This document shows, piece by piece, positions 1 through 39,724 of a DNA stretch of 39,724 nucleotides. How positions within the stretch are numbered: the stretch's first letter is position 1; each line of letters opens with the position of its first letter. The stretch spans positions 1 to 39,724 of IMG/VR virus record IMGVR_UViG_3300031576_000153; one strand, 5' to 3'. The position numbers and the translations under genes were made by a program. The notes beneath the pieces are model-generated. The model ran no database searches and had not been told where the DNA came from. It worked only from the letters and a program-made list of their open reading frames with translations. The stretch is from a virus.

Positions 1-127
1 ATTGCGTTTGCGATCATGCTCACGCCGAAGGACAAGGAAAACATCGCTTCGATGGCCGAGGACGCCACGATCTACTGCACGTTCTACGACGACCAGGATC
101 CGGCGGAGATCGCGGAGATCGAGGACT
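1..127. repeat. Direct terminal repeat, left copy (circular closure)
   Basis: These 127 bases are identical to the last 127 bases of the window (39598-39724). A coding sequence reads through the join without interruption. The length equals the largest k-mer commonly used by short-read assemblers, so I infer an assembly overlap of a circular or circularly permuted genome of 39,597 bp rather than a biological terminal repeat. Confidence 0.95.
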
Positions 128-7773: not shown

Positions 7774-8604
7774 ATGAATCCGGCGGACCCGGTAGACGCT
7801 GTCGATCCTTACTCGGTCGTCACGCTCGACGACGTGCGTACCGCCATGCAGCGGGAGTCGTCGGGCGACGACTGGTTGTTGGTCAACGCGATCAACGCGA
7901 CGCGGGCCGTGATGGAGATGCAGACGCGCCGCAAGTTGATGGAGCGGATCTGGGCTACTCCGACGACGATCGCATGCACGACCACGGTGGACAGCGTTGA
8001 CGTGACTGGCGGTTCCGGGTTCACGTCGCTGGTCGGCGGTGTCGGGCTTGACGCGCTCGGGGCCAGCCTGTCGTTCGGGTCGCGGGTCGCCTTGATCCAG
8101 AGCGCCACGGCGTTGAAGCTGGACCGCAGGGCAAAGGTTGGCGGCGCCACGTCCATCACGTTTGGCCGTGGCCACTACGGCTTCCGGCATGACGGCGGCG
8201 AGCAGGTGCTGCTTCCACAGTTTCCGGCCACGACCGTGTACAGCCTCAAGGTGCTCGGGTCATCTGGCGACCTGACGACGATCGATCTCGCCAACGCGAT
8301 CCTCGATGAAGCCGCTGGGATCTTGCAGCTCACGTCCGGTTCGATCGCGCGTGACGATTGGTGCCAGGCGGAGTTCAAGGCCGGAATGCGACCGCCATCG
8401 AACACGGATATCGGGCATGACGAGTTCTCGCGGGTGCAGCAGATCGCTCATCGGCTCGTGCAGGTGCTGTTCAGCGACTACAAGCACCTGCTGGGCCGAA
8501 CGATCGAGGTGAATATCGGCAACCACGCGATCCGGTTTCTCAACCTGAAGTTTCCCGAGGACATCAGGGAAGGGCTCCGCGAGCTGGAGCGGATCGAGGT
8601 CTGA
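7774..8604 (+). CDS. Head-tail connector (gp6-like adaptor)
   Basis: A 276-residue protein. Its N-terminus reads VVTLDDVRTAMQRE...DDWLLVNAINATRAVMEMQTRRKL, the pattern of gp6/gp15-type head-tail connector proteins, in which this helical bundle docks under the portal. The C-terminal two thirds is richer in beta strands (KVLGSSGDLTTIDLANA, WCQAEFKAGMRPP) and ends with a helix-rich part, longer than the minimal connector of about 100 residues. It follows the capsid group and precedes the gp10-like neck protein, matching the expected order. Confidence 0.7.
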   Translation: MNPADPVDAVDPYSVVTLDDVRTAMQRESSGDDWLLVNAINATRAVMEMQTRRKLMERIWATPTTIACTTTVDSVDVTGGSGFTSLVGGVGLDALGASLSFGSRVALIQSATALKLDRRAKVGGATSITFGRGHYGFRHDGGEQVLLPQFPATTVYSLKVLGSSGDLTTIDLANAILDEAAGILQLTSGSIARDDWCQAEFKAGMRPPSNTDIGHDEFSRVQQIAHRLVQVLFSDYKHLLGRTIEVNIGNHAIRFLNLKFPEDIREGLRELERIEV

Positions 8605-15421: not shown

Positions 15422-18400
15422 ATGGCAACCGCAGCGTTTCTCAAAGAGGCTAGACGGTCCGACGCGCCGCTCATCCCGATGGTGAAGGTCTTTCTCACCA
15501 GCCCCAGCGTCAAGACGCTCTTTCTCTCTACCAACTTCATCGAGGTCGAGACTTCTGGGATCTTCCAGCTCTGGGAGGGTGCGATCGTGTCGGTCGATCC
15601 GATCCGCGTAGACGGATCGAATCTTGGCACTGGGCTGGAGCCGGTCACGGCCGGGTTCACGATGGCAACGCGCGCGGCGCTCGGGTTCCAGACCGCGGAG
15701 ACCGATAACATCTCCAAGCTCCTCAAGGACTACCGGTGGATCGGCGCGAAGGTCGAACTCTACCTCTGGTCGCAGACGCTCACGAGCTTCTCGGACGCGT
15801 TGCTCGAATACACCGGGGTGATCGGAAACTACCGGGTCGATGGGGACGAAGTTCACTTCCCGCTCACGCAGCGCGGGGACTGGCAGCGAATCATCAGCCC
15901 GACCAGGGTGTCGAGGGACGTGTTCCCACGTGCACCGGATAGGTCGCTGGGGAAGGCGTTGCCGATCTTCTACGGAGCCGTCAAGTCGCTGGAGCTGCAC
16001 GTGCCTCCGTGGGACGCAGGATACTCGCGCGCGGTGCACGACATGGAACACAGCTTCGGCGGGCAGATCGGAATGCAGGTGATCCCGGTGGATAGCGGCC
16101 GCGGTGGCTCGGGGCAGCGGCAGGAGTTCTTGATCGCTGGACACGCGATCAAAAGCCACAACAGCCCGCTGACCGATCTGACGACCTACTTCATCCGCCA
16201 GGGTGACGTGCTGGTCCCGATCGAGATTCCGGCCTTCGCCGTCGCCGGGTGCTCGACCACGATCAACGTCGCCACCTTGACCACGAGCAACGACTTCTTG
16301 GCAGCAGGAGTCAAGATCGGGATGCCGCTCTCCGGCACCAACATTCCGGCCGGGACCACGGTGCTGGCGATCGCGAGCGCCACCAGCCTCACTATGAGCG
16401 CGAACGCTACGGCTACCGGGTCCGGCATCACGGTGACGTTCACAGCGACGCTGAACGGTGTGGCTGGCGCCGGATTCCAGCTCAACGACGGGTTTGCGGG
16501 CGCGAGCTGGCCGCTGACCCCGACTGGAGTTCCGACCGGGATCGCGCAGCCGGGAGATGATCTGCGATACGCAATCGACCCCAGCGACGTGAGCTTCGCA
16601 AGACTGACCTACCAACCGTCGGGGCCGTTGATCGACAAGCGCCGCGGCATCTGGTCGCTGCCAGACATCCCAACGCCAGGTGATTTGACCACCGGGATCA
16701 ACAACGTCTCCCTCAGATTTGGCTACCGAAGCAGCGCCGCGCTGACCAGCTTCAAGGTCGGGATCCAGAAAATCTCACCATCCAGCTTTCAGCAAGTCAA
16801 CCTGAGTCCGAGTACGACGTTGATCGGAACCTCGGTATCGCTCGGGGCGAACGATTGGGGTGCCGGCTCGATGCCGGTAACGCCATGGGCGTTCTCCGAG
16901 TGCCAGATCGTCGCTTATTGGGATCTCGCCCCAGCTCCAGGCGCCAGGGAGGACGTGTGGATTCACTTCGTCGGGTTGGAGGTGGTCTATGCGCCAAGGG
17001 CGAAGGTCTGGGCTCCGGGCTATCGCATCGCTCCAGGGAGGAAGTACCTGCCTCGCGTATGGCTGCCGGTCGCAGGAGAGCCGATCCGAACAGTCGCACC
17101 AGACACCGAGATCGACGCCGACTTCTACGGCACCTGCGAAGGCTACCAGGACGACGGGAGCGGAACCTATAGCGGCTCGGCAAGCGCATTGATCGAGAGA
17201 CCGGCAGACATCGCCCACCACCTGCTCAGGAACTATGCCGGGCAGAGCGCGGCTCAGGTACAGACCGCCACCTCGACGTTCGGCAGCTTCGTGGACGCTC
17301 GTAGCGCCATCGGCACCTGGAACAGCGGGCAACTCAAGGCAGGGATGCAGATCTCAGATATCAGCGACGTGGAGACGCTGCTCAAGGATCTGGCGAGAGC
17401 GGGGCACGCTTGGGTCTACCTCGATCGCTTCACGGATAAGTGGCACTGGATTCCATGGATCAAGGGCGGGGGCACGGATTACGCGAGGAAGGTCTGGCGC
17501 GATGACATCTTCAGCTACCACGTCGAGGCGATGCCGAACACGCGAGTGCCGTCAGCCATCAGGATTCTCTACGCCTACGATGCGGCCCGACGCGAGTTCA
17601 CGAAAAGCTGCTATTGCTCGACGGGCGGGTCTGGCGCCGGACACAAGTACCAGGACATCCGAGACGAGCAGGACTTCAAGGTCGTGACCGGGGTGAACGA
17701 CAAGCTCGACGTGGCGACCGGCGCTGGATTGGCGACCGTGACGCTCTCGGGCGGTAGCTATGCCGATGGGCACGCGATGGCAAAGCACGTGGACGGCACG
17801 ATGGAGGCAACGATCGCGGCGCAGGACTTCATGGTCTGCTACGGGGCGGTGGTCGAGGCCGGCTACAACGACAAGCTCGATTTCAACGACGGAGCGGTGA
17901 AAGCGGCCACGGTGGCGGCCGCGACCTACGCCACGATGGAGGCGCTGGCCACGGCCGTGCAGAATGCGATGAACGCCGTGAGCACGGACTGGGAATGCGT
18001 CTATTCGCGCGATACTCGCAAGACGAGGATCAACCGCCTCAGTGGCACCAAGACGCTGCTCACCGCGACCGGCGCGAACAAGGCCACGACGGCCTACACG
18101 CTGCTCGGATACAACAGCAACGCCGACGTGACCGGCGGCACCGTCGCCCAGCACTTCTCCGAGGAGGAGATGTTCCACGTGGAGTGCCTGACCAGCGCGA
18201 TGGACCTGCTATTCGCCAGCGGCGCCAATGGAAGCACGCAAGCAGCACCGAAGAACTGCGCCGAGCTACTCGGGTTCAACGCCATCTACGACCGTGACGC
18301 GGCGGGAGCGCGGAGGCACTGGACCTCGGACTCGCCGAGAAACACGCTGGAAAAGACGCTCGCCGATGCGGCCGATGCTTACGGGCAGAGTCGCGAGCTG

Positions 18401-23224: not shown

Positions 23225-23922
23225 GGGATGCGCTCGTCACAGACGAGCGCATCGACTTTCCAATCATCCGTCACCCGCTCGTCATCTCGCTCTACGACGG
23301 CGAGAGCATGGATGAGCATCTTAACGCGCTGCTCAAGTGGAAGAACGAACAGGTGCAGAAAGCGTTCGCGGAGCGTGGGTGGCGTCAGTTCATCTGGCTG
23401 CACGAGCGCCCGTACCGGTGGGACGCGCTCGCGTTGCTCGTCAACGCGCTGACGGATCGCCAGTGGTTCGAGCTGATGGGCATGGTGTGGGTGGACAGCG
23501 AGAACTTGTGGCAGGTGCAGGTGCGCTGGTTCCTCAGACAGAAACACGGGTGGGCCAGGAAGTGGCTGGGCGACGCTGATGGCGCAACGGCGGTCAAAGC
23601 TCTCCATCCACAGATGACGGTGTACCGCGGGTGCTCGAAGGGGAACGCGATCGGCTGGAGTTGGACGCTCGACCACCAGAAAGCTGAGTGGTTCGCGAAG
23701 CGGTTCGCGTTCAACGGCGAAGAGCCGACGGTGCTCCACGGGAAGATCCAGAGAGAGCGCATCATCGCCGGCATCTGGTCGCGAGGCGAAAGCGAAGTGA
23801 TCTGCGACCCACTCCAGGTGAGGGTTGAGAGAGTCGAGAAGCTGGACCATAGAAAGGAGAATGTCAATGCAGAGGAAGGCCAAGAAGTACCCGATCGAGT
23901 TGCTGAAGGTCAGCGAGTTTGA
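23206..23922 (+). CDS. Candidate ADP-ribosyltransferase-fold protein
   Basis: A 238-residue protein from ATG 23206. Residues 135-200 carry the three hallmarks of R-S-E class ADP-ribosyltransferases in the right order: MTVYRGC (R141), GWSWTLDHQKAEWFAKRF (S152, T154; helix after it), and RGESEVI (E195-x-E197). That is, an Arg strand, a WSWT in the place of the STS motif, and an ExE turn. Phages such as T4 (Alt, ModA, ModB) use such enzymes to modify host RNA polymerase. The 130-residue N-terminal region (helical, Trp-rich) is unknown. The last 18 residues overlap the RadC-like gene and are low complexity. A non-catalytic relative remains possible. Confidence 0.55.
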   Translation: MLDKELRDALVTDERIDFPIIRHPLVISLYDGESMDEHLNALLKWKNEQVQKAFAERGWRQFIWLHERPYRWDALALLVNALTDRQWFELMGMVWVDSENLWQVQVRWFLRQKHGWARKWLGDADGATAVKALHPQMTVYRGCSKGNAIGWSWTLDHQKAEWFAKRFAFNGEEPTVLHGKIQRERIIAGIWSRGESEVICDPLQVRVERVEKLDHRKENVNAEEGQEVPDRVAEGQRV

Positions 23923-24307
23923 GGTGCGTCTGGTGAGGGACAAGCCGACCAAGAAGGCGGCCATCAGTAGCCCGGAAGACGCCAAGCACGTTCTCATGCC
24001 GCTATGCACCTTCGACCGCGAACAGTCCTTCGTGGTCTATCTGAACGCGAGGCGTCAGGTGGTCGGCGTCGAGCTGATATCGGTTGTGCATCCGAGCGAG
24101 GTATTCAAGGGCGCGATCCTTGCCAACGCCGCGGCGATCATCGTCGCGCACACGCACCCGAGCGGATACGCTGACCCAAGCGACGAGGACAAGGCGATCA
24201 CGAAGCGCCTGACCCAGGCCGGCGAGCTGCTTGGAATTGCCGTCCTCGACCACGTGATCCTGACGGTCAGAGGACAGCATTCGATGAGGGCGTGGAACCA
24301 GTTGTGA
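23867..24307 (+). CDS. RadC-like JAB/MPN-domain protein
   Basis: A 146-residue protein; ATG 23867 is 7 bases after AAAGGAGA (ATG 23861 would be too close). The core AHTHPSGYADPSDEDKAI is the metal-binding JAMM motif of the RadC family, followed by AGELLGIAVLDHVILT, the strongly conserved end of the domain. RadC proteins are small JAB-domain proteins often found in phages, plasmids and anti-restriction islands; their biochemical job is unsettled (name inherited from a mistaken link to DNA repair). The N-terminal helix-hairpin-helix part of bacterial RadC is missing, as is common in phage versions. Confidence 0.82.
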   Translation: MQRKAKKYPIELLKVSEFEVRLVRDKPTKKAAISSPEDAKHVLMPLCTFDREQSFVVYLNARRQVVGVELISVVHPSEVFKGAILANAAAIIVAHTHPSGYADPSDEDKAITKRLTQAGELLGIAVLDHVILTVRGQHSMRAWNQL

Positions 24308-24351
24308 CACGAAAATAAACTATTGACAGAGCGGCGAGCGTGCTCTAGGAT
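24306..24351 (+). promoter_or_regulatory. Promoter P3 (CGAAAA-box sigma-70 type)
   Basis: CGAAAA at 24310-24315, 7 bases, consensus -35 TTGACA at 24323-24328, 17 bases, -10 TAGGAT at 24346-24351. Predicted start near 24358. It directly precedes the helix-turn-helix gene, which might be autoregulated. Confidence 0.85.
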
Positions 24352-24377
24352 TCCAGTGAATGGAGGTGGTGAACGAA

Positions 24378-24650
24378 ATGCCAATCAGCGAGTCAAGGCT
24401 CCAGCGCATCAGGATGAAGAACGGCGCGAAGCAGGTCGGCGAGGTGGCGACAGCGATCAAGGCGAGCGCCGGGAACGTCAGCGCGATCGAACGCGGAGTG
24501 GTCGTGTCTGGCCTGGGGATGCTCAAGCGGCTCGCTGGGTTCTACGGACTGGAGTTCAGCGAGATCTACCGGGCTCACATGAAGGACCGCGCGGACTACC
24601 TCGAAGAGGAGCTGGCGCGGGTCAGGAAGAGAATCGCAACCGGCGGCTGA
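24378..24650 (+). CDS. XRE-type helix-turn-helix DNA-binding protein
   Basis: A 90-residue protein. ATG 24378 has GGAGGTGGTGA before it; ATG 24360 would be almost leaderless. Residues 5-60 match the lambda-repressor-like fold: LQRIRMKNGAKQVGEVATAI, then recognition-helix region SAGNVSAIERG and LGMLKRLAGFYGLEFSEIY. The C-terminus is a short coiled coil (DYLEEELARVRKRIA), probably for dimers. It sits under its own promoter P3 and is the only recognisable transcription regulator, so it may act on the CGAAAA promoters. No integrase is present, so a lysogeny repressor role is unsupported. Confidence 0.72.
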   Translation: MPISESRLQRIRMKNGAKQVGEVATAIKASAGNVSAIERGVVVSGLGMLKRLAGFYGLEFSEIYRAHMKDRADYLEEELARVRKRIATGG

Positions 24651-24675
24651 GAGTCGCCGAAAGGAGAGGAAGCCC

Positions 24676-25404
24676 ATGACGGAGCTGGTCGTTCACAAGG
24701 GCGGATGGACCGCCACGGAAGAGGATGTGAAGGCCGCCGCGGTGCCGGTCGCGACGGCGAGCTACACGCCGGTGCCGAATTCCAGATTCATCGAGGAGGT
24801 TCGATTCAACCTGAGCCGCTTCGGACTCAAGGAGAAGCAGTCAAGGTTCGCGCTCGCGCGGGAAGGCAAGCAGTTGTTCGGCGTGCTCGACCTGACCAAC
24901 GGTGCCGGGGCGTCCGACTGGTCGCTGGCGCTCGGGCTGAGAAATAGCTACGACAGCTCGATCAGCCTCGGGCTCGTGGCCGGGTCCAGGGTGTTCGTCT
25001 GCGACAACCTGGCCTTCTCGGGCGAGGTCCAGGCGAGTCGGAAGCACGCGGCGAACATCTTCCGCGACATGCCGAGCATGATCTACGGGATGCTCGACAA
25101 GTGCGTGGCTCACCGTCGGATCGTCGAGGCCGAGATCCTTGGGATGAAGGATCTGACGATCGACGACCGCACCGCCCACGACCTGATGGTGCGTGCGGTG
25201 GACAAGGACGTGGTGCCGGTCTCGACGCTCCCGCACGTTCTGAAGGAGTGGAGAGAGCCGACGTTCCCCGACTTCATGCCGCGGACCGCGTGGTCGCTGT
25301 TCAACGCGTTCACGTTCATCCAGCAGCGGCGTTCGCCGCAGTCACAGATGGATGACACGTTGCGCCTGACGCGGGTGTTCAGGGAGACCTTGAGCATCAA
25401 CTGA
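24676..25404 (+). CDS. DUF932-like phage/plasmid protein
   Basis: A 242-residue protein (AGGAGAGG before ATG). The middle matches the DUF932-type proteins of phages and plasmids: FGVLDLTNG, then GLRNSYDSSISLGLVAGSRVFVCDNLAFSGE, followed by a long helical part with MLDKCVAHRRIVEAE and a final helix (RLTRVFRETLSIN). The family is widespread on mobile elements; no biochemical role is firmly established, although some are near anti-restriction or recombination genes. Here it lies upstream of the SbcD-SbcC fusion, agreeing with a DNA-maintenance block. Confidence 0.7.
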   Translation: MTELVVHKGGWTATEEDVKAAAVPVATASYTPVPNSRFIEEVRFNLSRFGLKEKQSRFALAREGKQLFGVLDLTNGAGASDWSLALGLRNSYDSSISLGLVAGSRVFVCDNLAFSGEVQASRKHAANIFRDMPSMIYGMLDKCVAHRRIVEAEILGMKDLTIDDRTAHDLMVRAVDKDVVPVSTLPHVLKEWREPTFPDFMPRTAWSLFNAFTFIQQRRSPQSQMDDTLRLTRVFRETLSIN

Positions 25405-25474
25405 CGAAATCCGGCGCGGTGGTCTCCATCGAGGGCAGACCCAAGCCCGCAAGGGGCCGCGCATTACCAAGCGA

Positions 25475-25490
25475 GGTTCCACGTGGAACC
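25475..25490. promoter_or_regulatory. 16-bp perfect palindrome matching the ParB-binding parS core
   Basis: GGTTCCACGTGGAACC is a perfect inverted repeat. The inner GTTCCACGTGGAAC is the form of the bacterial parS site (general pattern TGTTNCACGTGNAACA), known from chromosomal ParB/Spo0J binding sites. It lies in the short gap after the DUF932-like gene, just where a GTG (25483) could start the next small gene. No ParA or ParB is encoded in the window. Confidence 0.65.
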
Positions 25491-25713
25491 GTATCACTGG
25501 AAAGCGGCCAGGGCATGCTCGCCTCCGCTCATGGACATCAAACCGGAAGAGGCGATTCGGCGTCTGCGAGATGGAGCGAGCGAGTTCTGGCGCATCGAGC
25601 ACGAAGGCGGTCATCACAACAGCGACAAGCGGAGGTGCCCGCACTGCCTGCTGTCGGCGCGGATGCTAGGCGCGTCGCTGCGTTCGTTCAACCGGACAGG
25701 GAGGAAGTCGTGA
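25483..25713 (+). CDS. Small putative zinc-binding protein
   Basis: A 76-residue frame from GTG 25483 (inside the parS-like palindrome, with GCGAGG 6 bases before) or 60 residues from ATG 25531 (no clear ribosome binding site). The C-terminal part, IEHEGGHHNSDKRRCPHCLLSAR, contains H, H, C and C spaced like a small zinc finger, and the first part is an amphipathic helix (PEEAIRRLRDGASEFWRI). The competing frame over the same bases is Arg-rich and reads as its shadow. Stop overlaps the next start (GTGA). Confidence 0.5.
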   Translation: MEPYHWKAARACSPPLMDIKPEEAIRRLRDGASEFWRIEHEGGHHNSDKRRCPHCLLSARMLGASLRSFNRTGRKS

Positions 25714-26804
25714 GCGAGGAAAGAGGGATCCAGAGAGTCAACATGCCGGCCTGGGCACTGGAGGCCCTGGAGCCGTTCATGGGGAGAGAGGACATCAACC
25801 TCGTCCTGCCCTCAATCCCGGTGAACGCCCAGCTCGGCTTCGCGCAGGTGCCGACTGTGAGCATCGTCAGGGTCTCGCCCGACCCACAGAAGGGCGAGGT
25901 GTACAAGGTCGGAGCGCGCAAGAGCGCGGCCGGGCAATGGGAGAACCTCTACGCGCTGGGGAAGACTGCGCTCGACCGGCTGGGGTCCGCGGCCGGCGTG
26001 GTCTTCAACACGGTCAGGGTAGACAAGCGCGAAAACCCGGGCCGCTGCGAGTTCGCATGCCAGATCGCGGTGAAGAATGAGTCCGGCGTTCCAGTGATGA
26101 AGGTCTACCACAAGGAGCTGGACATCACGGTCGTCACTGAAGCCCGACGCCAGGAGCGGCAGGCGGCGAACGAGAAGGCGAAGGCTGGAGACAGGGTGTC
26201 TCCGGAGAAGCTGGAAGCCGACCTGGCGAACGAGATGGCGCAGTTCAAGAAGCACATCGTCGCCCGCTGCGAGACGGGAGCCATCAACCGCGGGATCCGT
26301 GGGCTGCTCGCGATCAAGTCGCAGTGGACCGCGACGGAGATCGGGCGGCCGTTCGTGGTGATGCGAACCGACTTCAGGCCGACGCCGGCCAACGCAGCCG
26401 AGCGCATGCTGATGCTGAAGATGGGCTATCAGTCGGCGATCCAGCCGCTCTACGGGCCGGAGATCGAAGAGACCATGCGGGCGCCACGGGCTTCGACGAC
26501 ATCCGAGGCGACCGTCATTCCTGACGACAACCTCGGGCACGATGACGAGGCGCCGCCTGACGACACGGAAGATCCCCCACCCGCTGCCACAGTGCCCGTC
26601 ACGCCCACAACGGCCGCGCCGAAACCAACACCTCAACCTCGGGCCGACGACGAGCTCAAGGAGATGTGTGAAGAGGCGTTCAGGGCGCTGGCGATCGGAC
26701 CGGCCGAGAAGGCGAAGCTGCTGGTCGCGAACGATTTCATCTACGGCAAGGTCTTCGATGCGCTGACAGAGATCGCCCACGAGCGCAGAAAGGCTGCGCC
26801 ATGA
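25710..26804 (+). CDS. Unknown 364-residue protein, possible recombination/ssDNA partner
   Basis: Starts at GTG 25710 overlapping the previous stop, with GGGAGG 5 bases before. Residues 1-150 form an alpha/beta domain (LVLPSIPVNAQLGFAQVPTV, KGEVYKVGARKSAAGQWE). A charged coil follows, then ETGAINRGIRGLLAIKSQWTATEIGRPFVV, a layout ('alNRaiR...l....w...el..PFvv') that recalls single-strand annealing and recombination-mediator proteins, though this is not a firm match. A proline/acidic linker (about 245-295) precedes a C-terminal helical region (DELKEMCEEAFRALAI). Located immediately upstream of the SbcD-SbcC fusion with ATGA overlap, it may load or modify DNA ends. Confidence 0.6.
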   Translation: MSEERGIQRVNMPAWALEALEPFMGREDINLVLPSIPVNAQLGFAQVPTVSIVRVSPDPQKGEVYKVGARKSAAGQWENLYALGKTALDRLGSAAGVVFNTVRVDKRENPGRCEFACQIAVKNESGVPVMKVYHKELDITVVTEARRQERQAANEKAKAGDRVSPEKLEADLANEMAQFKKHIVARCETGAINRGIRGLLAIKSQWTATEIGRPFVVMRTDFRPTPANAAERMLMLKMGYQSAIQPLYGPEIEETMRAPRASTTSEATVIPDDNLGHDDEAPPDDTEDPPPAATVPVTPTTAAPKPTPQPRADDELKEMCEEAFRALAIGPAEKAKLLVANDFIYGKVFDALTEIAHERRKAAP

Positions 26805-29800
26805 TGTCAGGGATCCTCCACTTCGCAGACCTGCACCTCGACGACAGCACCGAGGTCAACGCGAGCAAGGCGATGGCGCAGATGCTGGAGATCGCCCACG
26901 AGCGCAAGCCGGCCCTGATCGTGAACGCCGGCGACCTGGTGGTCAGGCGCGGCACGCTAAGGCCGTGGGTCGCTTACCAGCTCAGGCGGTTCCACAACGC
27001 GCTGGCGGACGTGGCTCCGGTTCTGGTCGTGGCTGGCAACCATGACCTGGTGGGCGACGGCGGAATCGGCGTGGCGCTGGGTGCGCTCGGCGAGACACGC
27101 CACAACATCACCGTGGTTGAGGGGAAACCGGAGGTCGTCAGGATCGCCGGGTACGAGCTCGCCTGCCTTCCGTATCCGTCCGTCGCCTGGATGCGGGCGC
27201 ACGGCGAGAACGCTGGCGTAAGGATGAACGCACAGCACGCGTCGGAGCTGCTCGCGATGACGGTGAAGGTGCTCGCGGATCAGTGCCAGCCAGGTGCCAT
27301 CCTCGTCTACCACGGAACGGTTGCCGGGGCGACGCTCGGCGGCGAGAGACAGATGCTGACGGGCGACGACATCATGCTGGGAAGCGGCACGGTACGGCGA
27401 GCCGACTTCTACAAGGTCTTGGCCGGGCACATCCACAAGCCGCAGGTCTTGCACGTCTCGACGCCGGAGGTCTGCGTCTACTACCCAGGATCGTCGGCGC
27501 CGCTCGGGTTCGGCGAGGACCACGAGCACGGCCTCTGGTGGCACCCGGACGACGGCGACCCGCTGTTCATCACGCTCAAGCCGGTGCACAGGTTCGTCAC
27601 GATCGAGGTGAACCTGGAGAGCATGGACATGCCGCAGGCCGACGTGGAAGACGCGCTGGTTCGCGTGAAGGCCACTGCGTCCGCGTGGGCAGACGTTGGG
27701 AAGCACGTGCCGGCGATACGCGCAAACCTCAAGTCGTTCGGGGCTGCCAGCGTGCGCTTCGCGATCGAGAGGGCCGAACTGGAGATCCGGAAAGACCCGG
27801 GCGCCCCGGTGATCGAGAGAGTCGAGACCTTCACCGAGGCGCTCGGACGGTGGATCGAGCGAGAGAAGGCGCCACGCGATGCGGTGCTGGAGTTCATGGG
27901 CCAGGTCGAGCTAGGGATCCCTCCAGAAGCCAGAGCGTCCGGTGCCTACGCGCTCACGCAGGTGGGGTGCTCCGACTTCAAGAGCCTCGGCAATGGACCG
28001 TGGGTGCTCGACCTTGCGACCATGGGGAAGCTGGTTTGCATCGAGGGGCCGAACGCGAGCGGCAAGTCGAACATCACCGAGGTCGAGGCGTTCGCGCTCT
28101 GGGGCCGGCTACCGCGTGGCAGGACGAAACTCGAAGGGATCGTCAGGCGCGGGGCCTCGTCAGCGAAAGCATGGGTCGAGTTTCACGTCGCCGGCACGCA
28201 ATGGAAGGTCACGAGGACGGTAGAGACGAGAGGAGCAAGCACCTACTCGACTCTGACATTGCTTGCGCGCGGAGTGGCTCCTACCACGGAATGGTTCCCG
28301 GCAGGTGGGAACAGCGCGGCCGAGACTCAGGAGAAGATTAACGCGCTGGCCGGCTCGTTCGAGCTCTACCTGTCGACGCGATACGCCGGGCAGGGCGACA
28401 TCGACCGGCTGCTCAAGTTCACGCCCGCCGAAACGAAGGACGCGCTGGTCGAGGCGCTCGGGCTCGGCGTGTTCGATCTGAGGCTCGCGAAGGCCAAGGC
28501 GCTCATCACGCCGCTTACGTTCAAGATCCACGGCCTACGCGGCGAGATCGCTGGAATGGAGCAGACCGATGACGTGATGGAGGCCATGATCGAAAAAGTG
28601 AACGCTGCCCGCTTCGGTGTTGCCGCCAAGGCTGCGGCGATCGTTGAACAGGAGCTCGGGCTCGAAGGTGTGCGCGCGAAGCTGGAACGCGCGGTTGCCG
28701 CGTCGGCTGCGCAGGAAGCAGCTCGCAACGCGGCAGAGGGAAGGAAAACCAAAGCGAGCCAGGCGTACGTGGCCGCAACGGGCAGGCTGGCAAGGCTACG
28801 GGGTGAACTGGAACGAAGGAGGGCGGTCTCGGCGAAGGGGCTTCAGAACGCACTACAGGACGAGACGAACGCAGCCATGAGCTGGGCCAAAACGCTCGAT
28901 GGGTACCGGCGAGGACTGATCCAGGAGCACCGCAGGGCCGAACTGGAAACGGATTCCTTGACGAAACAGTCCTCTGTGAGTCCGCCGTTCGGGGAGCAGT
29001 GCTTCGCGGCCGAGTGCGGGTTCTTGAAGTTGGCGCAGGCAGCGCGCCAACGGCTCGCAGCGGGTGTCGAGAGCAGGGCCAGCGTGATCGAGCAGGAAAT
29101 AGTCGCTGCCGAAGAGGACCAGCGGAAGGGGATCGAGCTCCACGCCGCCCTGGTCGCTGAAGCGCATGCAGCCCTCGATGCGTCGGTGGGCGACGATGGC
29201 GGTCTACCGGAGGCAAATAACGAACAGGCAGCAGCCCTGGCAGAGCTCGATGCGGCGAAAGCCGAGACCGCAACGCTGGTTGACTACGGACTCGACACCC
29301 ATCGCACGAGCGTGGTGCAGGGAGAGCGCGCGGTTCGCTTCGCACGCCAGGAACACGATGAGGCGATGGAGCTCCTAGTCAGGTCGAAGGCGATGGTCGA
29401 AGCAGCGATCGCCAGGAACGAGAAAGCGGAGGAGCTGAGGACGACGCTTGGACTCAAAGAGGCCGATCTTGAGGGGGCCACGTTCTACGCGAAGGCGGTG
29501 GGGCGCGAGGGGATTCCATACGACCAGATGGCGGCGGCGCTGCCATCGATCGAGCGGTGGGCGAACACGTTTCTCGGGACCGAGGAGCTGAGGGTCGAAA
29601 TCGCTCCGTTCGCCGAACGGCAGAGCGGAAAGACGGCGCCAGAGGTCGTGATCTCGTACCGGAACGGCTTCGGACTTCACGGGCTATCGGCCGTCTCCGG
29701 GTACGAAGGCGTCGCGATCGGCTACGCGCTAAGGGCGGCACTGGCGCGAGTGCAGGCCGACAGCCAGGGGTTGGAGTTATCCCACTGGTACGCGGACGAG

Positions 29801-29983
29801 GGTTGGGGCGTGTTCGACGAGTCGAACCTGATACTCGGCCGGGACATGCTGACCAGGCTTGCAGAGCAGTTCGGACAGGTGTTCTATGTTTCACATCAGG
29901 CGCCGATCAGGGAGGTAGCTGACACACGTATCGTGATCGAACCAGACTTCGATGAAGGCAGTTCGGTGAGCGTCGTTTCATAA
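26801..29983 (+). CDS. Single-chain SbcD-SbcC (Mre11-Rad50-like) nuclease/ATPase fusion
   Basis: A 1060-residue protein joining two normally separate subunits. Residues 1-400: SbcD/Mre11 phosphodiesterase, with HFADLHLDD (D10, H12), NAGDLV (D45), AGNHD (N80-H81-D82), VYHGT (H171) and AGHIHK (H210, H212), all metal-binding motifs present. Residues 401-1060: SbcC/Rad50 ATPase, with Walker A GPNASGKSN (416-424), long coiled coils, a CFAAEC pair at 734-739 at the expected hook position, signature-like AVSGYEGVAIG (S966-G967), and Walker B WYADEGWG (D999, E1000). It processes double-strand ends and hairpins. Most phages encode the two as separate genes (T4 gp47/gp46). It starts by ATGA overlap. 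Confidence 0.92.
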   Translation: MMSGILHFADLHLDDSTEVNASKAMAQMLEIAHERKPALIVNAGDLVVRRGTLRPWVAYQLRRFHNALADVAPVLVVAGNHDLVGDGGIGVALGALGETRHNITVVEGKPEVVRIAGYELACLPYPSVAWMRAHGENAGVRMNAQHASELLAMTVKVLADQCQPGAILVYHGTVAGATLGGERQMLTGDDIMLGSGTVRRADFYKVLAGHIHKPQVLHVSTPEVCVYYPGSSAPLGFGEDHEHGLWWHPDDGDPLFITLKPVHRFVTIEVNLESMDMPQADVEDALVRVKATASAWADVGKHVPAIRANLKSFGAASVRFAIERAELEIRKDPGAPVIERVETFTEALGRWIEREKAPRDAVLEFMGQVELGIPPEARASGAYALTQVGCSDFKSLGNGPWVLDLATMGKLVCIEGPNASGKSNITEVEAFALWGRLPRGRTKLEGIVRRGASSAKAWVEFHVAGTQWKVTRTVETRGASTYSTLTLLARGVAPTTEWFPAGGNSAAETQEKINALAGSFELYLSTRYAGQGDIDRLLKFTPAETKDALVEALGLGVFDLRLAKAKALITPLTFKIHGLRGEIAGMEQTDDVMEAMIEKVNAARFGVAAKAAAIVEQELGLEGVRAKLERAVAASAAQEAARNAAEGRKTKASQAYVAATGRLARLRGELERRRAVSAKGLQNALQDETNAAMSWAKTLDGYRRGLIQEHRRAELETDSLTKQSSVSPPFGEQCFAAECGFLKLAQAARQRLAAGVESRASVIEQEIVAAEEDQRKGIELHAALVAEAHAALDASVGDDGGLPEANNEQAAALAELDAAKAETATLVDYGLDTHRTSVVQGERAVRFARQEHDEAMELLVRSKAMVEAAIARNEKAEELRTTLGLKEADLEGATFYAKAVGREGIPYDQMAAALPSIERWANTFLGTEELRVEIAPFAERQSGKTAPEVVISYRNGFGLHGLSAVSGYEGVAIGYALRAALARVQADSQGLELSHWYADEGWGVFDESNLILGRDMLTRLAEQFGQVFYVSHQAPIREVADTRIVIEPDFDEGSSVSVVS

Positions 29984-35772: not shown

Positions 35773-36699
35773 GTGTACGGCAAGATATTCGCTAGCTTGT
35801 GGTCTGGTTCTATGCGTGGAAACAGCAATGCGCAACTCGTCTTTGTTTACCTCCTCGCTCACTCGGACAAAGACGGCTTGGTGAACATCGTTCCAGCGAG
35901 GATTGCCGGCGATACCGGGATGGCGCTGGCTGACGTGTTACGCACGCTTGTAGAGCTTGAAAACGAGGATGATGAAAGCAGGACGCCGGACGAGGGAGGG
36001 AGGAGAATAGTCCGCCTCGACGCTCATAGAACGTGGGGCTGGCAGATCGTAAACCACGCTCGATATAGGGACATACGACGCGAGGAGGACCGAAGAATCC
36101 AGAACCGAGACGCCAAGCGCAGGGAACGCGAGAAGTCAGCATTGGTCAGCATTGGTCAGCACAAGTCAGCGTTGTCAGCCAATACAGAGACAGATACAGA
36201 GGCAGAGACAGAGGAAGAGGCAACAGAGAAGACTGCTTCTTCTTCGCTACGCTCAGAAGAAGCGCGGCGGTCAGCAAATGTCAGCAAGGCCAGAGACATC
36301 GTTCAAGGCATTGCCGTTCACAAAAGCGTAACGAAACGAGACGGAAGCGAAGATGAGCGGCCGCGGCTCTGGGAGATCGCGAAGGCCAACGCCTCGCCTG
36401 AGAACAGCGCCGGAGAGCTGATGGCCGCCTGCGCCTGGCTCTGGAAGAACGTGACGCACGACTTCGCGGTGATCGAGCAAGCGATCGCCAAGGCCAGGAC
36501 GGCGAAGAACCTGTTCGCCTACTTGCAGCGCGATGGGCCGGCGGTGTACGCGACGGTGGGCGAGGTGGCGGTGGCTCGGGGAGAGGCAGAGCGGCATCTG
36601 AACGCCGACGCGGACCGGGCGTTCCTGGGGGCAGCCAGAGAGCTGGAGACGACAAGCAGGGAGGACGGGCGCGATGCCAGCAGCGAAGAGCAGGGATGA
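35773..36699 (+). CDS. Replication initiator/replisome organiser-like protein
   Basis: A 308-residue protein from GTG 35773, 8 bases after GGAGGG. The N-terminus (IFASLWSGSMRGNSNAQLVF, VYLLAHSDKDGLVNIVPARIA, SRTPDEGGRRIVRLDAHRTWGWQIVN) matches the N-terminal winged-helix domain of many phage replication-initiator proteins, ending in the usual basic YRDIRREEDRRIQNRDAKRR. A low-complexity hinge follows, encoded by the iteron array. The C-terminal domain (residues 185-270, ELMAACAWLWKNVTHDFAVIE) may recruit the host helicase loader, like lambda O. The protein should bind the iterons within its own gene. Confidence 0.72.
   Translation: MYGKIFASLWSGSMRGNSNAQLVFVYLLAHSDKDGLVNIVPARIAGDTGMALADVLRTLVELENEDDESRTPDEGGRRIVRLDAHRTWGWQIVNHARYRDIRREEDRRIQNRDAKRREREKSALVSIGQHKSALSANTETDTEAETEEEATEKTASSSLRSEEARRSANVSKARDIVQGIAVHKSVTKRDGSEDERPRLWEIAKANASPENSAGELMAACAWLWKNVTHDFAVIEQAIAKARTAKNLFAYLQRDGPAVYATVGEVAVARGEAERHLNADADRAFLGAARELETTSREDGRDASSEEQG
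36135..36285. repeat. 10-bp iterons (GTCAGC), probable replication origin
   Basis: GTCAGC starts at 36135, 36145, 36155, 36165 and 36174, spacing 10, 10, 10, 9; consensus GTCAGCATTG. Two more lie at 36270 and 36280, again 10 apart. Between them (36184-36231) is a purine-rich, relatively A-rich repeat (CAGAGACAGA). The array is inside the initiator gene, as in lambda, where the O protein binds iterons within its own gene. Confidence 0.7.
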
Positions 36700-39562: not shown

Positions 39563-39724
39563 AGCTCGCGACCAAGATCGGCAAGGACGGCAACCAGATT
39601 GCGTTTGCGATCATGCTCACGCCGAAGGACAAGGAAAACATCGCTTCGATGGCCGAGGACGCCACGATCTACTGCACGTTCTACGACGACCAGGATCCGG
39701 CGGAGATCGCGGAGATCGAGGACT
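39559..39724 (+). CDS. Small protein crossing the genome join (5' part)
   Basis: ATG 39559 overlaps the nuclease stop (ATGA). The frame reads KLATKIGKDGNQIAFAIMLTP and continues at position 1, so the complete product of 84 residues is formed only in the circular molecule (see the entry at 1-216). The window ends inside the gene. Confidence 0.8.
   Translation, partial: MKLATKIGKDGNQIAFAIMLTPKDKENIASMAEDATIYCTFYDDQDPAEIAEIED
39598..39724. repeat. Direct terminal repeat, right copy (circular closure)
   Basis: Identical to 1-127. See the left copy. Confidence 0.95.

Follow-up and report, generated by a model that had tools for sequence, protein, structure and literature searches.

The window, by which we mean the whole 39,724-nt stretch of viral DNA analysed (IMG/VR record IMGVR_UViG_3300031576_000153), carries a perfect 16-bp palindrome that is well supported as a parS-type site and that probably acts as a chromosomal-type parS, loading host ParB onto the DNA of a phage in which no ParB gene is recognisable. 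The parS-type assignment, already proposed in the earlier note, is strengthened by the occurrence of the 14-bp core GTTCCACGTGGAAC in the closest relative found (L122) and alongside parAB in one genome from the likely host phylum, as well as by an excess of the motif over control sequences. Given this assignment, and because records that carry such sites mostly lack ParB_N (37/38, 34/34, and 19/21 in three samples), recruitment of host ParB is the best reading of the palindrome. The site and the next-best match in the window are as follows:

Positions 25475 to 25490, no strand assigned: parS-type palindrome GGTTCCACGTGGAACC, perfect over 16 bp, with the core GTTCCACGTGGAAC at 25476-25489.
Positions 18172 to 18185, plus strand: next-best parS-like match, GTTCCACGTGGAGT, with 2 mismatches, within an ORF; judged to be a chance match.

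The palindrome is exactly as the earlier note had described it, 16 bp around a 14-bp parS core; this core is an exact instance of GTTNCACGTGNAAC, and GTTCCACGTGGAAC has one exact copy only in the whole record. Rarity argued from palindromicity alone was rejected, as the window contains 2 perfect palindromes of at least 16 bp vs. a mean of 1.27 in 60 dinucleotide shuffles. parS-like matches with up to 3 mismatches are also at chance level (2 in the window vs. a shuffle mean of 1.68). For the specific 14-mer, arithmetic from the window's G+C content (~63%) gives ~1.5e-4 expected copies per window, in agreement with the previous estimate of one occurrence per several thousand genomes.

Chromosomal parS sites share the 14-bp core with the window palindrome: the consensus is TGTTCCACGTGGAACM in Pseudomonas aeruginosa in vivo (PMC5098823) and TGTTCCACGTGGAACG in M. 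xanthus (PMC3899335). The window site differs from chromosomal parS in being located on a phage, in the absence of recognisable parA/parB, in its single copy, and in its outer pair, G..C, which places it one mismatch from the P. aeruginosa consensus (the C end is permitted by the M of TGTTCCACGTGGAACM, the G end is not). Sequences with two mismatches were not significantly bound by P. aeruginosa ParB in vivo (PMC5098823).

The palindrome lies 3' of a DUF932 gene and 5' of a short ORF, within the following neighbourhood:

Positions 23825 to 24307, plus strand: RadC-like JAB domain gene (PF04002), upstream of the DUF932 gene.
Positions 24676 to 25404, plus strand: DUF932 gene (PF06067), directly upstream of the palindrome.
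Positions 25531 to 25713, plus strand: ATG-initiated 60-aa ORF with a His/Cys-rich stretch, downstream of the palindrome, with an alternative GTG start at 25483.
Positions 25710 to 26804, plus strand: phrog_13782 protein (function unknown), with a GTG start that overlaps the preceding stop.
Positions 26801 to 29983, plus strand: SbcD-SbcC-like fused protein of 1060 aa.

The location in a gap, as initially described, stands insofar as the palindrome falls between the DUF932 gene and the ATG of the 60-aa ORF; a start at GTG 25483, which is within the palindrome and in frame with this ORF, would overlap the site. Because GAGG at 25473-25476 precedes this GTG by 6 nt, the palindrome may overlap the start of the 60-aa gene, in which case the intergenic gap would be shorter than first described and the site may span the gene start. 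The 60-aa ORF has no Pfam or PHROG match at E 0.001. There is no terminator-like match at the palindrome, and folding around it is not unusual (z -1.27); an intrinsic terminator or unusual RNA structure was thus rejected as its role, being without support. No sigma-70-type promoter match was found within 25000-26000. Elsewhere in the neighbourhood, the 1060-aa protein joins an SbcD-like phosphoesterase to an SbcC-like ATPase, a fusion also present in L122, and the RadC and DUF932 genes (23825-25404) are also near neighbours in Eisenbacteria, in Verrucomicrobia, and at a small number of further loci.

The identical ends of the record point to a probably complete, circularly assembled genome of ~39.6 kb:

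Positions 1 to 127 (plus strand) and 39598 to 39724: terminal direct repeat, exact over 127 bp, the first copy identical to the last.

Terminase, portal, head, and tail proteins are encoded, and the record has no Pfam match to PF02195 (ParB_N) or PF13614 (ParA type). The absence of ParA and ParB claimed in the earlier note therefore holds at the Pfam level, in a record that looks complete, and no linkage of the site to parA/parB or an origin is apparent in it. Phages P1 and N15, mycobacteriophages, and cyanophage Mic1 resemble the window in having a centromere-type site on the phage genome, but these phages supply ParA/ParB themselves, together with sites proposed for those proteins (PMC3585329, PMC7156551), whereas the window has no PF02195 match and neither protein at the Pfam level. 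SGI1 is a mobile element with copies of another replicon's parS that uses the ParB of that replicon: its parS-like sites hijack the parABS of IncC plasmids (PMC10954446). The window likewise has a parS mimic and no recognisable ParB of its own. In SGI1, however, a helper plasmid encodes the ParB, and both its binding and the resulting stability have been demonstrated (PMC10954446), whereas the partner of the window site is a proposed chromosomal ParB, put forward from sequence evidence.

The parS motif is over-represented in viral DNA, an excess expressed for IMG/VR only relative to control palindromes (base-reversed, with the centre GTGCAC in place of CACGTG; one further control, used for phage records only, kept CACGTG). 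Scans of IMG/VR gave at least 120 matches to GTTCCACGTGGAAC and at least 120 to TGTTCCACGTGGAACA, the latter vs. 0 for its control ACAAGGTGCACCTTGT. The window 16-mer GGTTCCACGTGGAACC was found in 99 stretches vs. 1 for the reversed control CCAAGGTGCACCTTGG, a count that includes redundant and multi-copy records and in which several stretches share context, such that distinct cases are fewer; 88 of these stretches have a single copy and 11 have several, with 122 copies in total. Among the matches listed for the 14-mer, which comprise 119 distinct sites (121 before those with identical 34-bp context were dropped), the flanking base is T at 161 of 238 positions, against a background of 24% T in these loci, and 59 sites have T..A on both sides. 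The T..A flank is a known parS extension. This bias is weaker in listed matches of >60% G+C (T at 19 of 44 positions, duplicates again dropped), and the G..C type of the window occurs in 2 of the 119.

Viral sites of each kind also fall between genes more often than do positions drawn at random from the loci concerned, although the fractions are approximate, coming from crude gene calls (longest ORF first) after removal of duplicates and of sites <300 bp from a locus end: 29/112 for the 14-mer vs. 9.3%, 41/103 for T..A-type sites vs. 10.7%, and, for window-type sites, 14/64 when single-copy vs. 8.9% and 14/29 when multi-copy vs. 6.7%. PF02195 was detected in one of 38 site-bearing IMG/VR records (the window, L122, L125, and L031, plus 34 with T..A sites) and in none of 34 records with the window-type 16-mer, taken from the 99 stretches; because many IMG/VR records are fragments, these absences are firm only for the larger records and for complete isolates. 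The ParA type (PF13614) was detected in two of the 38, one of them above the cut-off.

Relatives were collected by scanning IMG/VR with the DUF932 protein, with the best 80 of 215 loci retained. L122 is the closest relative found, with six window genes matched, including DUF932 (54% identity) and the phrog_13782 protein (52% over a 239-aa segment, 44% across the whole alignment). It carries the exact GTTCCACGTGGAAC, extended to ATGTTCCACGTGGAACAT, at another place in this gene module, deep within the SbcC-like gene and in a stretch that has no counterpart in the fused protein of the window. The same palindrome at the same place in related phages, envisaged in the earlier note as support, was not found: L122 has no palindrome in the 54 nt between the DUF932 stop (6720) and GTG 6775, which we read as the start of the next gene. 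The converse expectation, that relatives lacking the palindrome would count against the proposal, gave a mixed outcome, as L122 has GTTCCACGTGGAAC, whereas 15 of 17 DUF932-sharing records searched whole (drawn from the 80 loci) have no GTTNCACGTGNAAC, the two carriers being L122 and L125. Thus, presence of the motif is common to the window and the nearest relative found, its position is not conserved, and the wider group does not carry it as a rule. The L125 site reads as intergenic, directly 5' of an apparent ribosome-binding site.

Among named phages, the window has no relatives at the DNA level and distant matches only at the protein level. With the portal and phrog_13782 proteins as queries, no IMG/VR relative was found besides the record of L122; genome contigs gave no further relative, and neither did the 47 genomes sampled from the likely host phylum (the last search having no positive control). 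In L031, a TGTTCCACGTGGAACG site at position 8560 is embedded in a longer inverted repeat that is rich in GC (GCGCTCTGCCC...GGGCAGAGCGC). The window protein at 35773-36699, which has no family match, is one that we take to resemble phage replication initiators; its homologs are found in L125, L031, and L096, all three of which carry parS-type sites. A link between this protein and the sites was set aside, because two of the three homolog loci had been selected for carrying a site.

These comparisons bear on whether the palindrome is a chance occurrence with no role in the window, a possibility compatible with functional copies in many other viruses. Shuffled windows do yield 16-bp palindromes (1.27 each), the outer G..C pair is of a minority type (2/119 among the listed viral matches), and the single copy is neither conserved in position nor shared by 15 of 17 relatives; but the specific 14-mer is expected at ~1.5e-4 per window, it recurs in the closest relative found, and the ratio of 99 stretches to 1 control is large, though redundant and multi-copy records are included in it. 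On this evidence, chance is unlikely.

Candidatus Eisenbacteria is the likely host, as judged from matches to the DUF932 protein and to the surrounding DNA. Among long cellular DUF932 matches, the best are to three Candidatus Eisenbacteria MAGs (50-54%), one unclassified bacterium (50%), and one contig labelled Kerfeldbacteria (55%); Verrucomicrobia follow, at ≤41%, and identities of up to 54% are seen elsewhere in short partial matches. The likely host phylum was sampled as 47 genomes from the phylum to which the source genome of L205 belongs, part of which match the DUF932 and RadC regions at ~65-76% DNA identity; matches are otherwise mostly short and scattered. A DNA-level search of these 47 genomes, which had no control phylum, gave no convincing prophage or spacer match.

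GTTCCACGTGGAAC is present in 11 of the 47 genomes, the reversed control in 1. In L291, the only genome inspected closely, the 14-mer lies between gidB and parA-parB, and a second parS-type site is within the parB reading frame. Across 29 distinct sites in the phylum (duplicates and two G055 loci outside the listed phylum having been dropped), the 58 flanking bases are T 27, G 15, A 8, and C 8; the flank type of the window, with G outward on both sides, occurs at one of the 29, a GTTCCACGTGAAAC site and not the exact 14-mer. With the host assigned only from gene similarity, the window site may match the host's own parS in its core; its G..C flank is rare in the phylum.

Named phages carry the motif as well. 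Of 50,697 phage records, 108 contain the 18-mer (at least 16 nt matched) and none contains either of two same-composition controls, one of which kept CACGTG; AGGTTCCACGTGGAACCT was found in 33 phage records in a search that had no matching control. By name, the 18-mer matches listed are most often from Mycobacterium (27), Pseudomonas (20), Microviridae (15), and Klebsiella (10) records, and none listed is from an Escherichia or Salmonella phage. The Klebsiella records (10/108), several of which belong to giant phages whose site falls in a baseplate gene, are a misfit to host-ParB recruitment, because par genes are absent from Enterobacteriaceae chromosomes (PMC7022226). Some matches are evidently misfiled chromosome, such as the 'Acinetobacter phage MD-2021a' records, in which the site is in recF and mutY.

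From 21 site-bearing phage records picked for diversity, 19 have no PF02195 and 2 have it. Together with the records of L122 and L125, they contain 45 GTTNCACGTGNAAC sites and none of the reversed pattern; eight of these 23 records, all chosen for carrying a site, have more than one. Pseudomonas phage SYP has five sites in its first 7.7 kb and one at the far end, and Stenotrophomonas phage Yut4 has three sites inside 1.2 kb, arrangements that resemble chromosomal clusters. Several isolates have 3-6 sites each, dispersed across several kb in several Pseudomonas isolates. Several site-bearing isolates belong to groups that we take to be lytic. In the 5-kb microvirus Gokushovirus WZ-2015a (L472), two adjacent parS-like palindromes, GTTCCATGTGGAAC followed by GTTCCACGTGGAAC, occupy a gap between annotated genes.

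The placement and number of these sites touch on two other uses of host ParB. One is transcription control, in which ParB loading would chiefly repress or time downstream genes: genes close to parS may be silenced as ParB spreads (PMC4820964), the sites of L125, Yut4, and Psychrobacillus phage Perkons lie just 5' of an apparent ribosome-binding site and start codon, and the window site may itself overlap a gene start. We regard this as distinctly unlikely, since the L122 site is deep within a gene, several Pseudomonas isolates have sites spread over several kb, and the region around the window palindrome has no sigma-70-type promoter match. The other is a decoy function, in which replicated phage copies would titrate host ParB and disrupt chromosome segregation. 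Isolates with 3-6 sites would compete with few chromosomal sites, four in P. aeruginosa (PMC5098823); a single site, as in the window and in 15 of the 23 records, would be a weak titrator, and of all the alternatives we give this one the least credence.

The core of the window site also occurs within 22-bp palindromes close to AGGGGTTCCAYGTGGAACCCCT, which are dispersed in several to many copies, with the centre mostly CAC or CAT, in five IMG/VR records:

L301, L325, L348, L357, and L360, together one 39-kb record: AGGGGTTCCAYGTGGAACCCCT-type multi-copy loci.
L336, L349, and L371, together one 39.8-kb record, and L364, L370, and L394: further AGGGGTTCCAYGTGGAACCCCT-type multi-copy loci.

These palindromes have the same 16-bp core as the window, but are longer, have several copies per record, and are variable at the centre; possibly they are a different signal that shares the parS core. 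That the window palindrome likewise serves a different protein, as an operator or a structural signal, is very improbable: the five records do have several such palindromes each and none has ParB_N, but the window has a single copy without the AAGG..CCTT extension (5 mismatches), and neither a terminator-like match nor unusual folding accompanies it. As a separate observation, an inverted repeat at L350:2952-3017, perfect over 66 bp or more, is centred on GGTTCCACGTGGAACC, and is possibly a genome end or an assembly fold-back.

ParB is a CTP-dependent DNA clamp. In recruitment of host ParB, the reading we favour, host ParB-CTP would load at the palindrome as a sliding clamp after phage entry and would spread over neighbouring phage DNA, by which the phage genome would be tied to the DNA-segregation apparatus of the host (ParA gradient, SMC loading). 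Host identity, ParB binding, clamp loading, and benefit are each what we infer. Loaded ParB might segregate or position the phage DNA, recruit SMC, or control genes locally, or its titration might itself be the benefit. The likeliest benefit would be that host ParB positions the unintegrated phage genome, keeps it accessible, and lets daughter cells share it as they would a piece of host chromosome; multiplying phage copies would also draw ParB off the host origin. Positioning and partition are ranked first mainly because one parS suffices for segregation in P. aeruginosa (PMC5098823), and because titration by one site would be weak.

On balance, we lean slightly toward a broader interpretation: that carriage of parS without ParB is a widespread phage strategy, by which an infecting genome would read as 'chromosome' to host ParB, with the window phage as one example and a range extending from tailed phages (of Pseudomonas, Stenotrophomonas, Mycobacterium, and many uncultured) to small microviruses. 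Searches of the open-licence PubMed Central literature (preprints and most subscription journals being outside this scope) turned up no account of chromosomal-type parS sites in phages that lack ParB. Laboratory systems exist in which the proposal is directly testable, for example Pseudomonas putida phage vB_PpuM-NoPa, which carries three sites. If it is true, phages without a partition gene have repeatedly acquired a host centromere signal, and host ParB does something useful for phage DNA.
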